A stretch of 32,208 nt of DNA from Fimbriimonadia bacterium (GCA_039961735.1 JABRVX010000024.1:1-32208); one strand, 5' to 3'; shown: positions 2 through 5,285, counted from the first letter of the stretch. The notes: generated from the sequence alone by a model not told the origin. A program made the numbers and translations.

Positions 2-694
2 GTGCTGAAGCCGAACATTGGCTGGCAGCGCCTTCCCGACCAAGCCGCAAACACGAACCCCGAAGTAGTGGCCGCCGTCGTGCGCATGTGCAAGAAGGCC
101 GGTGCGTCGCGGGTGCTCATCGTGGAGCACACGTGCGACCAGCCCTCCGACATCTGCTTCGAGATGAGCGGCATTCAACAGGCGGTGCGCGAGGTGGGGG
201 GCGAAATCATCGCCGCCAACCGCGAGTCGCAGTACGAGCCGCTGGACCTACCCTATGCGCGCGAGATGATGGCAGCAACCGTGGCGAAGGAGGTGCGCCG
301 CGCCGACTGCTTCATCAACATCCCCATCGCGAAGGACCACAGCCAAGCGCGCCTGAGCATCGGCATGAAGAACCTGATGGGGGTGGTCTGGGACCGGCAG
401 GAATGGCACCGCTCGCGCTCGCTGGACCAGTGCATCGCCGACTACCTAACAGGCGTGCGGCCGCACCTGACCATCGTGGACGCGGTGCGCATCTTGGTCG
501 GCATGGGCCCGAAGGGGCCGGGACCTACCAAGGACACGCAGCAGATCATCGCATCGGTGGACGCAGTCGCAGCGGATGCCTACGCGGCTACACTATTCGG
601 GCTAGGTGCAGCCGACGTGGAGTATCTGCGTATTGCAGGAGAGATGGGCCTGGGCGAGACGGATACTAACAAGATGAAGGTCCTGCGGGCGTAG
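2..694 (+). CDS. DUF362 family protein, 5' end cut by the window
   Basis: The frame is open from the first bases of the window, and the protein begins at a motif (LKPNIGW) that normally lies inside DUF362 domains, so the true start is probably upstream even though a GTG stands at position 2. The visible 230 residues carry family hallmarks: a stretch on a gene-product segment like SRVLIVEHTCD, a central KDHSQARLSIGMKNLMG block, and a C-terminal VDAVAADAYAA region. No signal peptide is visible in the part seen. DUF362 proteins are poorly characterised and often sit with ferredoxins. The next gene starts 9 nt after the stop codon and encodes a multi-cluster ferredoxin, so a shared operon and a redox role are likely but inferred. 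Function of the domain itself is unknown. Confidence 0.82.
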   Translation: MLKPNIGWQRLPDQAANTNPEVVAAVVRMCKKAGASRVLIVEHTCDQPSDICFEMSGIQQAVREVGGEIIAANRESQYEPLDLPYAREMMAATVAKEVRRADCFINIPIAKDHSQARLSIGMKNLMGVVWDRQEWHRSRSLDQCIADYLTGVRPHLTIVDAVRILVGMGPKGPGPTKDTQQIIASVDAVAADAYAATLFGLGAADVEYLRIAGEMGLGETDTNKMKVLRA

Positions 695-703
695 GGGCAT
701 CGG

Positions 704-2353
704 GTGCCGACCACCGAAGCGACCACGAGAACGAAACGCAAGCGCTGGACAATGCGCGCCTCGCGTCGCTGGGTGCAGGTCGCATTCTTATTGCTGTTTC
801 TGTGGCTCATCGTGGTAACAGTCTTCCCGTTGCGCTCGGTCATCCCCCCCGATCTCTTCCTGCGAGCCGACCCGCTGGTCGCGCTGACCGCGATGCTCGC
901 CTCTCGTGCCTGGTTGTCGGAAGCAGCGACGTACTCAGGAGTGATAGTTGTAGGCACGGTGTTGTTCGGGCGCTTCTTCTGCGGGTGGGTGTGCCCGATG
1001 GGCACGGTGATCGACCTCTCGGACCGCTATCTCATCCACAAAAAGCGCGAGCAGGGCGAGAGCCGCGCACGCAACTTGAAGTACTACCTGTTAGGTGGTC
1101 TCGCAGTTGCTGCGCTGTTCTCTTCGCAGGTCACCTACTTCTTCGATCCGATCAGCCTCGTCACGCGCACCGTGATATGGGTGTTGGTGCCTGCGTTCAC
1201 CATGGTCGGGCATTGGGTGCAGGCGCAACCCATCGTGTACGATATTGCGCCGGCGCTGGCTCAGTCGAGGCTGATCACCGAGATCGTGCCGCACTTTCGC
1301 TTGGGTTGGGTGGCGGTGCTGCTGTTTGCTGGCATCCTGGCATTGGGGCTGATTTCCCAGCGTTTTTGGTGCCGTAACCTCTGTCCTCTAGGGGCCTTGT
1401 TAGCACTGCTCTCGCGATGGGGGCTCGTGCGTCGCACCGTGAGCGATGACGCATGCACTGGCTGCTCTGCTTGTGACCGCTTCTGCAAGATGGGTGCTAT
1501 CAAGGCCGATCCAAAACATTACCAAGCAACCGAGTGCATCTACTGCTTCAACTGCGTGGAGGTTTGCGCGCCGCGCGGCACGTCATTCCCGATCCGGTTA
1601 GGGACGCAGCAGTTTCACACCGAGCTCGACCTGTCTAGGCGCAGGCTCCTCGGTGCTGCTGCGGGCGGACTGCTTTTCGCGGCGCTGGCCAAGAGCGACC
1701 CCGGCTCGAAGCGCAGCGGCAATACGCAGATTCGGGTCTCCAGCCCCGGCCTGATCCGCCCGCCTGGCAGCGCGCCGGAAGACGAGTTCCTCGACCTGTG
1801 CACGCGTTGCGGGCTCTGCATGAAGGCCTGTCCGACGAATGGCCTGCAGCCCGCTCTCGGCGAAGCCGGCCTGGAGGGCCTTTGGACGCCGGTGCTCGTT
1901 CCGCGAATCGGCTACTGCTCCCAGCACTGTACGCTCTGCGGTCAAACCTGTCCTACGGACGCCATCCGGGAGTTCTCGGCGGCCGAAAAGAAGTATCTGT
2001 ACATCGGGACCGCGTTCATAGACCGCAGCACCTGCCTGGTGTGGGCCAACGACAAGCACTGCTTGGTTTGCGATGAGGTGTGCTCTTACCGCGCCCTGCA
2101 CTGGAAGGTAGTGGACGGACGTCGAAGGCCCTTCGTGGACGAGGGAAAGTGTACGGGCTGCGGCGAATGTGAGACCAAGTGTCCGATCCAACCGGTGGCG
2201 GCCATCCGAGTGACGTCCATCGGCGACAAGAGGCATCTGCCGCGCGAACGGCAACGGGCGAATTTCGAGGCGGCGGAGCGCGCCGCCAAGTCGCGCCCTC
2301 CCTCCGAGGGCGCGCCGACCCCCGACCGACCTTCACCCTATGGAGGGAAGTAG
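704..2353 (+). CDS. Membrane polyferredoxin, NapH-NapG-like fusion (549 aa)
   Basis: The first half (about residues 20-240) resembles NapH/NosR-type membrane ferredoxins: several hydrophobic helices with two cytoplasmic CxxxCP loops (FFCGWVCP at 91-98, CRNLCP at 223-228), followed by two 4Fe-4S motifs beginning at C251 and C278. Residues 311-330 then contain SRRRLLG followed by a hydrophobic run, which looks like a twin-arginine signal in the middle of the chain. The second half resembles NapG: CTRCGLCMKACP (366-377), CSQHCTLCGQTCP (405-417), a cluster at 444-460 and CTGCGECETKCP (483-494). In other bacteria NapH and NapG are separate proteins that pass quinol electrons to periplasmic enzymes. 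Here no Nap reductase is visible, so the electron acceptor is unknown. The start is a GTG preceded by a GGGG run. The spacer to the next start is 4 nt. Confidence 0.85.
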   Translation: MPTTEATTRTKRKRWTMRASRRWVQVAFLLLFLWLIVVTVFPLRSVIPPDLFLRADPLVALTAMLASRAWLSEAATYSGVIVVGTVLFGRFFCGWVCPMGTVIDLSDRYLIHKKREQGESRARNLKYYLLGGLAVAALFSSQVTYFFDPISLVTRTVIWVLVPAFTMVGHWVQAQPIVYDIAPALAQSRLITEIVPHFRLGWVAVLLFAGILALGLISQRFWCRNLCPLGALLALLSRWGLVRRTVSDDACTGCSACDRFCKMGAIKADPKHYQATECIYCFNCVEVCAPRGTSFPIRLGTQQFHTELDLSRRRLLGAAAGGLLFAALAKSDPGSKRSGNTQIRVSSPGLIRPPGSAPEDEFLDLCTRCGLCMKACPTNGLQPALGEAGLEGLWTPVLVPRIGYCSQHCTLCGQTCPTDAIREFSAAEKKYLYIGTAFIDRSTCLVWANDKHCLVCDEVCSYRALHWKVVDGRRRPFVDEGKCTGCGECETKCPIQPVAAIRVTSIGDKRHLPRERQRANFEAAERAAKSRPPSEGAPTPDRPSPYGGK

Positions 2354-2357
2354 CGAA

Positions 2358-3347
2358 ATGGACACAGGGCAATCCAGAAGAGAGTTTCTGAAGAGTGCTG
2401 CGGCCGCCGGGCTAGGCCTGGCTATCGGAGGTAGGGCGACCGGGGTGCTACAGGAGAAGGCACAGGCCAAGGCGACCGTCGTTGTAGTTCGCAACGCGGA
2501 CGCGCAGGACTCCGAGCATCGCTATCGGGCGGATGTCGTGAAAAAGATGGTGTTCGAGGCGGTGCGTAGGCTGAGTGGAGAGAGTACCGACAAGGCGGCG
2601 TGGAGTCGCTACTTCAAGCCTAGCGACGTGGTAGGTATCAAGCTCAACTGCCTCTTCGGCATGAACGCCTCTACGCATCCCGAGGTGGCATACGCCGTCG
2701 CGGAGGGCATTCAGCTAGCTGGCGTGAAGCCGGAGAACATCATCTTGTGGGATCGCAGCGACGGCGACCTGGCGAAGTCGGGCTACGAGATCAACCGCGA
2801 CGGGCCCGGCATCCGTTGCTATGGGACCAACGGAGAGTACGAGGAGAACAATACGCAGCAAGGGTCGTTCAACGGGAAGCTGACGAGAATCCTAACAGAG
2901 CGCATCACTGCACTGGCAAACGTCCCGATCCTGAAGGATCATGGCACCGCGGGTGTTACCATCGCGTTCAAGAACCACTATGGCACGTGTAACAATCCGG
3001 GCGCGCACCACGGCAACAACTGCGATCCCTACCTCGCCGATCTGAACAACGTGCCCGCGATCAAAGACAAGACCCGACTCGTCATCTGTGATGCCATCCG
3101 AGCATTGTGCAATGGCGGACCGGGCCTCAATCCTAAGTATCTGTGGGATCAGAACTGCATCCTGGCTGCAACCGACCCTGTAGCGCTCGACTACGTCGGA
3201 TGGCGGATGATCGAGGACCGCCGCAAGGAAGTGGGCCTTCCTTCTCTAGCCGATGCTGGTAGGCCCGTTAGGCACCTGGCAACCGCCGAGAAACTCGGCT
3301 TAGGCATTGCAGACCCCGCACGGATCTCCATGGTGACGATCGGATGA
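2358..3347 (+). CDS. Tat-exported DUF362 protein
   Basis: I chose the ATG at 2358 because GGAGGG at 2342-2347 is well placed for it; a frame-compatible ATG at 2340 lies inside the upstream gene. The 329-residue protein opens with a clear twin-arginine signal (SRREFLK at residues 6-12, then an Ala/Gly-rich hydrophobic stretch), so it is probably folded with a cofactor and exported. The remainder matches the DUF362 pattern, including VVGIKLNCLFG, a VPILKDHGTAG block, an internal FKNHYGTC segment and the ATDPVALDYVGW region near the end. Several Cys and His residues lie in the FKNHYGTC to HHGNNCDPY stretch and may bind metal, which is inference. It is the second DUF362 gene of the operon, paired with the fused polyferredoxin. 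Its end overlaps the next start in ATGA. Confidence 0.85.
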   Translation: MDTGQSRREFLKSAAAAGLGLAIGGRATGVLQEKAQAKATVVVVRNADAQDSEHRYRADVVKKMVFEAVRRLSGESTDKAAWSRYFKPSDVVGIKLNCLFGMNASTHPEVAYAVAEGIQLAGVKPENIILWDRSDGDLAKSGYEINRDGPGIRCYGTNGEYEENNTQQGSFNGKLTRILTERITALANVPILKDHGTAGVTIAFKNHYGTCNNPGAHHGNNCDPYLADLNNVPAIKDKTRLVICDAIRALCNGGPGLNPKYLWDQNCILAATDPVALDYVGWRMIEDRRKEVGLPSLADAGRPVRHLATAEKLGLGIADPARISMVTIG

Positions 3348-3871
3348 TGGCGCGAACACTGTTAGTATTCCTCTGCCTCGCAGTCGTCGCCGCTGCATAT
3401 GGCCAGGGAGAGAGCTCGAAGGCTGCACGCGCACTTCCCGCCGCCTCGGAGCTGACAGGTTGGCAGGAGGTGAAGGGGTCCTATCAGTACGGCACGGGCG
3501 ACGGGTTGACCGCTATTTACAACGGCGGTTACATGATGTATGTGAATGCCGGAGTGGTGGAGGCGGCGCAGAGACTGTACCGGAAGGACAAGCTGTACCT
3601 GACGATTACCACTCACACGATGCGCACCGCCAACGCGGCGTCGGCATTTCTGCAGCACTGGGAGAAGGCCAACGCGAAGGAGAAGCGCGAGAGCACCCCC
3701 GGGCGAGGAAAGGGCTTCGTCGTGATGGTAGGTGGCGCGACGAACGTGTACTGGGTGCAAGGTGGATACTTCGTGACCATTATGGTCACGGGATCGGATG
3801 CTGCCGCAAAGAAGGAAGCCCTTGCCGCACTGGCAGTCGTGGCCAAAAAGACTGCCGCCCCGGCGAAGTAG
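3344..3871 (+). CDS. Secreted DUF6599-like protein
   Basis: The ATG at 3344 overlaps the upstream TGA (ATGATG), so translation is probably coupled; the second ATG at 3347 is equally possible. The 175-residue product starts with a signal peptide (hydrophobic to about residue 20, ending near AAAYGQ). The mature part has the pattern I associate with DUF6599: a LPAASELTGW opening, a YNGG(Y)MMYVN segment and a YLTITTHTMRTANAASAF block. DUF6599-type proteins are found beside DUF362 and polyferredoxin genes in other phyla, which matches this context, but I cannot confirm the family by search. No cysteines or heme motifs occur in the mature part, so it is not itself an obvious electron carrier. A hairpin terminator follows 37 nt later. 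Confidence 0.7.
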   Translation: MMARTLLVFLCLAVVAAAYGQGESSKAARALPAASELTGWQEVKGSYQYGTGDGLTAIYNGGYMMYVNAGVVEAAQRLYRKDKLYLTITTHTMRTANAASAFLQHWEKANAKEKRESTPGRGKGFVVMVGGATNVYWVQGGYFVTIMVTGSDAAAKKEALAALAVVAKKTAAPAK

Positions 3872-3907
3872 GTGCCATACCTCCCTCTCCCTTGCCCATA
3901 TGGCGAA

Positions 3908-3933
3908 GGCCGCTCGGCAAGTGCCGAGCGGCC
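3908..3933 (+). terminator. Hairpin terminator of the redox operon
   Basis: A perfect 12-bp inverted repeat (3908-3919 with 3922-3933, arms GGCCGCTCGGCA / TGCCGAGCGGCC) lies between two convergent genes and is followed by TATTCTGCTT. The short loop means the innermost pairs would open. The T-rich side faces the + strand, so it most likely ends the operon at 2-3871, and it may also slow transcripts coming from the opposite strand. Confidence 0.65.
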
Positions 3934-3967
3934 TATTCTGCTTGCGAGCCTCCGTACAAACCGCTAG

Positions 3968-4348
3968 CTACATGCCGCGGCAGCCTCCGCAACCGCCGCC
4001 CGCGGCACCTTCGCCTTCTTCCGTCGCGAACGAGCTCCCGCAACCGCAAGATGCCGCCGCGTTCGGGTTCTCGATCTTGAACCCGCCGCCTAGAACGTCC
4101 TCCACGTAATCGACCTCCGAACCTGCCATGTAGCTCAGGCTCAAAGAGTCGATCAACACCCGAACGCCCTGGCTGTCGAACGTCTGGTCGTTCTCGTCGG
4201 GCTGGCCATCGTCAATGGCCATGCCGTACTGCAGGCCCGAGCAGCCGCCTCCCGCAACCCACACGCGCAGGAACGCCTCCGGCTTGTTCTGCTCGTTTAG
4301 AAGGTTCTTGATCTCGGTCGCTGCGCGCTCCGTCAAGGTTATGGACAT
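3968..4348 (-). CDS. A-type iron-sulfur carrier (IscA/SufA/ErpA family) with Cys-bearing tail
   Basis: The ATG at 4348 is preceded by GGAGGAG with a 6-nt spacer, so the longer open frame reaching 4384 is not needed. The 126-residue protein has the complete A-type carrier signature: GGGCSGLQYG with C36, and SCGCGSSF with C101 and C103, the three cysteines that bind the cluster passed to client apoproteins. Normal family members end at or just after the CGCGxSF motif. This one continues for about 19 residues, rich in Glu and Gly, with a further CGGC pair (C120, C123). The gene lies just beyond an operon encoding a protein with at least six Fe-S sites, on the opposite strand. Which family branch it belongs to cannot be told from sequence alone. 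Confidence 0.92.
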   Translation of the reverse strand: MSITLTERAATEIKNLLNEQNKPEAFLRVWVAGGGCSGLQYGMAIDDGQPDENDQTFDSQGVRVLIDSLSLSYMAGSEVDYVEDVLGGGFKIENPNAAASCGCGSSFATEEGEGAAGGGCGGCRGM

Positions 4349-4453
4349 CTCACACTCCTCCAAAATCCGCCGATACCTTACCACATACTACGGATTTTAG
4401 CTAGCCTAAGTAATCGGGCGGCCCGTTCGGCCCACCGATTCCGGCAAAGAGAA

Positions 4454-4486
4454 CGGCCCCGGCTGCCGGATGAGGCGACGGGGCCG
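4454..4486 (-). terminator. Intrinsic terminator after the STN-zinc ribbon gene
   Basis: On the minus strand, arms CGGCCCCG and CGGGGCCG (4479-4486 and 4454-4461, 17-nt loop) are followed by TTCTCTTTG. It begins 20 nt past the stop codon at 4506, the expected place for an intrinsic terminator of that gene. Confidence 0.6.
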
Positions 4487-4505
4487 CGAGCGGGGCGGGA
4501 CGAGT

Positions 4506-5285
4506 TCAGCTCTTCGTTGTAATCGGCTTCACCCAGTAACCACACGAGGGGCAGTACTTCCAGAGCTCTTTGAGTTCGTGCTTGCAGTTGGGACACTTCA
4601 TCGAGACTGCCGGCTGTGGCGCAGGCGCCACATTTGCCTTGCCCGCCGTTTCGATCACGACCGAAGGCTTTTCGGCTGCCGGCGTGGTCGTCGTCGCCTT
4701 CCCGATTCGAATCGAGCCGTCCAGCATCGGCTCCCATGAGAGCTGAGCGGCCTTCGTCAGGGTGTCCAGCGCATACCGTAGCGTGACGTTGGAGAAGGAA
4801 ACATTGACGAGGTAGTTGGGCACGGTGGGCTCGACGCGGATCTGCATCCCTGCGAGCTTCCCGAGCGAAGAGAAGGCGTTGGTCAGGGCGATCTTCTGGT
4901 CTTTCAGCGTGACGATGCGACTGAGAATGGCCTGCCAGTCGAAGTCGGAGCCAAGGCGTCCGCTCGGGGCGACCACCACCGGCTGAGGACCTATGTAGTA
5001 CACGCCGTCACGGATCTCGTAGTGCAGCTTCGCCTGCTGCAGCAACAGGTTGAACGCGGCGTCGAACTCGACATCGTACACGGACATATAGAGCTGGTGG
5101 CGCACCGAGCTGTCCAGTATGTAGTTCTTGCGGGCCTGGGTGAAAAGGCTATGAATGGCATCACGCACATCGCGGCCAGAGGACTCGATGCTGTACTTGG
5201 GCGCGGAATCGGAAGTTGCGGCCGCATCCTGCGCGGGTGCAGTCATCACGAGGAAGGCGGCAATCGCGAGCACTACCCATCTCAT
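4506..5285 (-). CDS. Exported protein with two STN-like domains and a C-terminal zinc ribbon
   Basis: The 259-residue product begins with a signal peptide (MRWVVLAIAAFLVMTAPAQ). Residues about 30-99 and 128-196 look like two copies of the short secretin/TonB N-terminal fold: in each, a stretch such as VRDAIHSLFTQARKNYILD is followed by a predicted strand and then an amphipathic segment (FDAAFNLLLQQAKLHYE; LRYALDTLTKAAQLSWE), ending in a Y/I-x-I-G. After a Pro/Ala/Thr-rich linker comes a four-cysteine ribbon (C231, C234, C245, C248). Zinc ribbons are usually cytoplasmic, so one behind a signal peptide is odd. It lacks the secretin channel domain. GGAG precedes the ATG, and the gene follows the putative anti-sigma gene by 15 nt, so they are probably cotranscribed. 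Function unknown; the domain reading is mine. Confidence 0.68.
   Translation of the reverse strand: MRWVVLAIAAFLVMTAPAQDAAATSDSAPKYSIESSGRDVRDAIHSLFTQARKNYILDSSVRHQLYMSVYDVEFDAAFNLLLQQAKLHYEIRDGVYYIGPQPVVVAPSGRLGSDFDWQAILSRIVTLKDQKIALTNAFSSLGKLAGMQIRVEPTVPNYLVNVSFSNVTLRYALDTLTKAAQLSWEPMLDGSIRIGKATTTTPAAEKPSVVIETAGKANVAPAPQPAVSMKCPNCKHELKELWKYCPSCGYWVKPITTKS

Follow-up and report, generated by a model that had tools for sequence, protein, structure and literature searches.

What does a membrane polyferredoxin do in one operon with two DUF362 proteins? The question is raised by a Fimbriimonadia bacterium, the 3.2 Mb genome of which (98.9% complete) includes contig C24; its stretch of 32,208 nt from contig base 1 is here called the window. 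Four genes follow one another on the + strand: D1, a DUF362 protein with its 5' end missing (2..694); NapHG, a fused membrane polyferredoxin (704..2353); D2, a Tat-DUF362 protein (2358..3347); and a small secreted DUF6599-like protein of 175 residues (3344..3871). An earlier note on this DNA had described them as an envelope electron-transfer operon with gaps of 9 nt or less. All four open reading frames are indeed present, and together they make up an operon. D1 and NapHG are 9 nt apart. The D2 frame is open from an ATG at 2340, which would overlap NapHG by 14 nt, but the alternative ATG at 2358, leaving a gap of 4 nt, is the more likely start because GGAGG precedes it. The ATG of the DUF6599-like gene overlaps the D2 stop by 4 nt, and the tight spacing is thereby borne out as well. 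The closing element is a terminator-like hairpin (3907..3934, + strand; 12 pairs, loop of 4) about 35 nt past the last stop, which has the longest stem among the five terminator-like sites found, where 2.7 were expected by shuffling. On the 3' side of the hairpin, an A-type Fe-S carrier gene (PF01521; 3968-4384, - strand) converges on the operon, and beyond it an STN/zinc-ribbon protein is encoded on the other strand at 4506-5285.

Neither a heme or flavin partner nor any known reductase is encoded in the operon, in agreement with the earlier claim that reductase and cytochrome genes are absent from it. A terminal reductase just 5' of D1 was considered and rejected: the contig ends inside D1, and the genes found 5' of D1 in orthologous loci (encoding a T2SSE-like ATPase, pyruvate:ferredoxin oxidoreductase subunits, a DNA methylase and an L,D-transpeptidase) are mutually unrelated. 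They differ from one orthologous locus to the next and thus give no hint that a terminal reductase has been missed.

NapHG, of 549 residues, has the motif set of NapH and NapG in a single chain. Its 28 cysteines make up two CX3CP motifs, at residues 93-97 and 223-227 (CGWVCP and CRNLCP), and exactly six four-cysteine (4Fe-4S) motifs, of which the NapH-like half holds two and the NapG-like half four, where at least six ferredoxin-like clusters had been claimed before; 27 of the 28 cysteines are invariant among 23 homologs from Armatimonadota and beyond. The set is completed by a twin-arginine motif, an internal RRR at residues 312-314, the second Arg of which is invariant in the 23 homologs and which, judged by its sequence, resembles a retained NapG Tat signal. 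Domain searches returned Fer4_5 and several Fer4 models, with sub-cut-off matches to NapH/MauN and MauM/NapG. Because both curated NCBIfam cut-offs were missed (TIGR02163, 107.4 against 213; TIGR00397, 73.6 against 178.9), NapHG is regarded as a relative of NapH/NapG and not as an equivalog. Its topology was estimated from hydropathy alone. In one divergent relative (locus L070), a TPR and FMN-binding-domain (FMN_bind) protein (1685-2791), NosR-like in parts, is encoded directly 5' of NapHG (2804-4590).

The two flanking proteins belong to DUF362 (PF04015; cut-off 24), D1 with 171 bits (E 4e-50) and D2 with 79.6 bits (E 4e-22) plus a TAT_signal match. Because the window starts at contig base 1, the contig end truncates D1; its visible part comprises 230 residues and, judged by alignment with orthologs, some 80 are missing, the Tat signal among them. 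Nearly all full-length D1 orthologs start with twin-arginine signals, in many cases followed by a lipobox Cys, e.g. MNRREMLQWLGLAGLAVVAGCS. A scan of named genomes gave 80 D2 loci in many phyla, and nearly all of these homologs carry RR signals, the clearest exceptions being two from Zixibacteria (L145 and L157). The genome of the window encodes TatC. Sequence features of this kind indicate that both DUF362 proteins are probably exported, an assignment that for D1 is drawn from the orthologs because its N-terminus is missing; D1 is probably membrane-attached and D2 probably soluble. The earlier description of the pair, one member cut and one with a Tat signal, holds for the window, but export is not a property of D2 alone, since the D1 orthologs are of the Tat type too. 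At seven loci (L123, L124, L125, L129, L130, L132 and L134), a TatA gene, confirmed as TatA_B_E in one of the seven, separates D2 from the DUF6599-like gene, as though an export component came with the operon. A third DUF362 gene of the same genome, lacking a Tat signal or ferredoxin domain, lies directly 3' of a glmS-like gene (G000:C59:69686-70303; L004:1132-2232, - strand).

The fourth protein of the window scores below the cut-off for DUF6599 (PF20244; E 0.01, 15.9 bits against 27). It is called DUF6599-like because proteins in the same slot of relatives, next to D1, score far above the cut-off as full-length DUF6599 (E 5e-39 to 8e-56), which supports its description as a DUF6599-like secreted partner. 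In the literature searched, DUF6599 is not mentioned and no function assigned to DUF362 could be found.

Structure prediction gives the DUF362 proteins a recognizable fold. The earlier note had proposed modeling them together with the ferredoxin; modeled singly with AlphaFold2, D2 of the window (pLDDT 92.8) and a D1 ortholog from locus L088 (pLDDT 89.2) both gave confident models, the top PDB matches of which are LarA-family racemases. A second aligner scored the D2 model against LarA at Z 16.8 over 205 residues (2.9 Å; best unrelated fold 5.1) and the D1-ortholog model at Z 19.1 over 208 residues (2.6 Å; best unrelated fold 5.3). D1 and D2 are thus predicted to share the fold of LarA, the nickel lactate racemase, and the result agrees with the grouping of DUF362 and DUF2088 (LarA) in one Pfam clan, CL0471 (PMC11770544). 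The similarity is significant in the fold comparison alone, the DUF362-LarA profile-profile comparison being insignificant. Sequence searches of solved structures found no relative, two of them returning chance-level matches (one and three) and two others nothing, and Lar_N (PF09861) has no match anywhere in the genome of the window.

The residues kept in each group can be compared with those of the LarA active site. Invariant among 54 D2-type sequences (numbered from ATG 2358) are K95xN97, H195, K205, N206, H218, GP254-255, D273 and D278; the 18 D1-type sequences share KPN86-88, H196, K206, H219, D242 and D274. In the visible 230 residues of the window's D1, the family's invariant residues are a KPN close to the visible N-terminus, His113-x9-Lys123, a His 13 residues on, and Asp187/Asp192. 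Common to both groups is His-x9-Lys-x12-His, whereas the LarA sequences compared have His-x9-Lys-x15-His, with 15 residues instead of 12 between Lys and His. In LarA, the lysine (Lys184; PMC11796402) tethers the nickel-pincer nucleotide (NPN) and a histidine ligates nickel (PMC12611868). Profile alignments with a probability of just 2.2% and 0.5% place the DUF362 His and Lys on those of LarA, and the second His of D1 on the nickel ligand. As a lead, the DUF362 His-Lys-His may tentatively be equated with the catalytic His of LarA, the Lys that tethers its cofactor and the His that ligates nickel.

That such clusters recur had been claimed earlier, and a search for the gene order in other phyla bears this out. 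A NapHG homolog (E <= 1e-20) is present in 92 of 291 Armatimonadota genomes, and many genomes have orthologs with 40-64% identity in an identical or similar gene order; within the window's own taxonomic order, an ortholog was found in just two of 61 near relatives. At the 40 Armatimonadota loci inspected, D1 lies upstream of NapHG in 28 (once with an intervening gene), D2 is clustered with NapHG in 13, and a DUF6599-like gene is present in 18. Farther afield, the order D2-DUF6599-D1-NapHG occurs in Desulfobacula and Desulfobacteraceae of the Desulfobacterota (L135, L136 and L142), and D1-NapHG-(one ORF)-D2 in a Chloroflexi MAG (L154). The two-gene core D1-NapHG is carried by a cultured gut bacterium, Parabacteroides distasonis, with a spacing of 6 nt, a twin-arginine D1 (WP_005857469.1) and a NapHG of 532 residues with the same motifs. 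The pairing of NapHG and DUF362 is not obligatory, because D2-DUF6599-D1 exists without NapHG in Poribacteria (L119, L167) and Bacteroidales (L162), and some Armatimonadota NapHG genes have no DUF362 gene nearby; in another MAG (L160), DUF6599-D1 is separated by about 4 kb and a large gene from D2.

Several other genes were observed around the cluster. At three loci where NapHG has no DUF362 neighbors (L063, L081 and L082), it is preceded by a TlpA/redoxin-type lipoprotein, which suggests that the same electron wire serves thiol redox elsewhere. Where NapHG is absent, D1 can be followed by a very large secreted protein of 1,130-1,402 residues (L160:2810-6931, L162:5484-9692 and L167:2881-6273), for which weak propeller matches (Reg_prop, PorZ-N) were obtained at L160. 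An AmrS-like radical SAM gene stands directly 3' of D2 at seven loci (L121, L122, L127, L133, L137, L139 and L143) from Calditrichota, Latescibacterota, Chitinivibrionia, Zipacnadia and others, and directly after NapHG at L069:7997-9184; in at least L122 and L139 the AmrS-like protein has a twin-arginine-like N-terminus, odd for a SAM enzyme. As a required partner it was rejected, since the genome of the window has no AmrS above cut-off. Only one other genome of the window's taxonomic order, G003, was found to bear the cluster, and there a glycerate kinase gene (PF02595, E 1e-125; L044:6788-7939, - strand) is inserted between NapHG and D2, overlapping the D2 start.

How these parts could work together is suggested by DUF362 proteins elsewhere. 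In database records from Subdoligranulum variabile and Acetoanaerobium noterae, a ferredoxin with two 4Fe-4S motifs forms the C-terminal part of a DUF362 fusion protein, and Fer4 has been described as nested in DUF362 (PMC7955657); such fusions support electron exchange with DUF362. We consider it somewhat more probable than otherwise that the four genes specify an extracytoplasmic redox module, with NapHG connecting exported DUF362 metalloproteins of the LarA fold to the quinone pool. The NapH-like half of NapHG would exchange electrons with membrane quinone, and the six Fe-S clusters would carry them across the membrane to an outside-facing NapG-like half. There, the NapG-like half would meet D1 and D2, both presumed to be exported through Tat, each of which, as the conserved residues and the predicted fold suggest, probably uses the invariant His-Lys-His site to bind a metal or a metal cofactor. 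NapHG would then reduce D1 and D2, for catalysis or for activation, with the DUF6599-like protein as a secreted partner. The general claim of electron transfer in the envelope is well supported by the NapH/NapG homology, the conserved Fe-S and CX3CP cysteines, the Tat signals and TatC. Several points weigh against the specific module: the operon has no heme or flavin partner or known reductase, NapHG falls below the curated cut-offs, NapHG and the DUF362 genes also occur without each other, and the residues were matched to LarA by profile alignments whose probability is very low. Outward electron flow is favored because the characterized NapGH and NosR proteins work outward. The earlier suggestion that the exported DUF362 protein is the terminal acceptor captures one of two possible electron directions, and D1 is probably exported as well as D2.

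The main rival has the electrons flowing the opposite way. The first step of LarA chemistry is hydride removal, and the substrate of glycerate kinase is a 2-hydroxy acid; the LarA fold predicted for both D1 and D2 and the glycerate kinase gene between NapHG and D2 in a genome of the same taxonomic order would both suit dehydrogenases acting outside the cytoplasm, on a 2-hydroxy acid for instance, from which NapHG returned electrons to quinone. NapH-like proteins are modular and can serve 'to reductases or from oxidases' (PMC8238504), so the wire itself would allow this. We nevertheless think it unlikely, if a serious contender: the kinase gene occurs at one locus only, neither a transporter nor a sugar-acid gene set is conserved nearby, and, judged by LarC and LarE, the LarA cofactor pathway is missing from the genome of the window. 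A role in maturation or metal handling would make D1 and D2 exported metal chaperones or assembly factors, their metal kept reduced by NapHG and their client located elsewhere. NosR, implicated in the activation of the copper enzyme NosZ (PMC5928378), offers a proposed precedent, the cluster has no catalytic client of its own, and the AmrS-like radical SAM gene beside D2 at seven loci is a candidate maturation enzyme; this role seems distinctly unlikely given that no client gene recurs beside the cluster, that D1 and D2 keep an enzyme-like invariant set of His, Lys and Asp, and that the window's genome has no AmrS above cut-off. The rarity of orthologs in the window's own taxonomic order (two of 61 genomes) might suggest that unrelated Fe-S and DUF362 genes came together by chance, but this is hardly credible, being already contradicted by a gene order conserved across several phyla and by the existence of DUF362-ferredoxin fusions.

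D1 and D2 could also be NPN proteins, non-LarA users of the LarBCE pathway, as their LarA fold and His-x9-Lys-x12-His would allow. About 15% of genomes are reported to have larB, larE and larC without larA (PMC11796402). Within Armatimonadota, LarC is found in 84 of the 92 genomes that have NapHG and in 75 of the 199 that lack it (Fisher p 3e-19, a test that ignores descent, by which the association is confounded), and in seven of the eight NapHG-bearing genomes known to be without LarA. This co-occurrence, to which the window's genome is an exception, is a possible lead on orphan nickel-pincer biosynthesis. LarA and LarC are absent from that genome, as judged at 98.9% completeness, and LarE has weak, sub-cut-off matches only, which makes it unlikely that this organism uses the standard nickel-pincer cofactor. 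NPN dependence was accordingly ruled out as the main explanation for the window's genome, a counter-example from which it follows that the cluster as a whole does not need NPN. Among 42 D2-bearing named genomes, mostly of other phyla, LarC is found in 28 and missing from 14, and the Lys-to-His spacing of 12 residues departs from the 15 of LarA; we regard D1 and D2 as very improbable NPN proteins. A broader proposal, that DUF362 proteins are non-LarA users of NPN or a related tethered metal cofactor and that D1 and D2 perform net redox chemistry with electrons that NapHG supplies or removes, is a long shot. If true, it would contrast with the redox-neutral racemases known so far, and genomes without LarC or LarE would need a different cofactor route or a different metal centre.

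For the favored redox module, electron transfer by a NapH-like protein to or from the outside is of a known kind, and it is the set of DUF362 and DUF6599 partners that appears undescribed within the literature searched. The combination of a membrane electron wire with probably exported proteins of predicted LarA fold points to a redox reaction in the cell envelope. A widespread family, DUF362, is here linked to a ferredoxin and probably exported, with the predicted fold of LarA and, tentatively, part of its active-site pattern; this bears on the question of who the users of the nickel-pincer cofactor are in genomes that have the pathway without LarA.

Four known systems resemble parts of the operon. 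In the NapGH menaquinol dehydrogenase of periplasmic nitrate reduction in E. coli and Wolinella succinogenes, as in NapHG, the NapH part has two motifs each of the CX3CP and 4Fe-4S types, and the NapG part has four of the 4Fe-4S type besides a twin-arginine motif; NapHG differs in being fused in one protein and in scoring below the curated NapH/NapG cut-offs, and its operon, without a gene for NapA, NapC or methylamine dehydrogenase, supplies DUF362 and DUF6599 partners instead. NosR, PceC and flavinylated NapH-like systems (PMC8238504, PMC5928378) share the modular NapH-type membrane unit for extracytoplasmic redox enzymes, whereas here there is no FMN-binding domain, and Tat-DUF362 proteins take the place of NosZ or the dehalogenase. 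With the LarA superfamily (Lar_N/DUF2088), D1 and D2 have in common the predicted fold over ~205 residues and a His-x9-Lys followed by a later His, but they are shorter (about 310-335 residues), probably exported and linked to a ferredoxin, with no recognizable Lar_N sequence match and, among the standard cofactor genes, neither LarC nor a LarE above cut-off found in this genome. The cytoplasmic DUF362-ferredoxin fusions, finally, pair DUF362 with a physically joined 2[4Fe-4S] ferredoxin in one soluble protein without a Tat signal, and beside them the operon looks like an exported, split version of the same arrangement, with NapHG as the ferredoxin.
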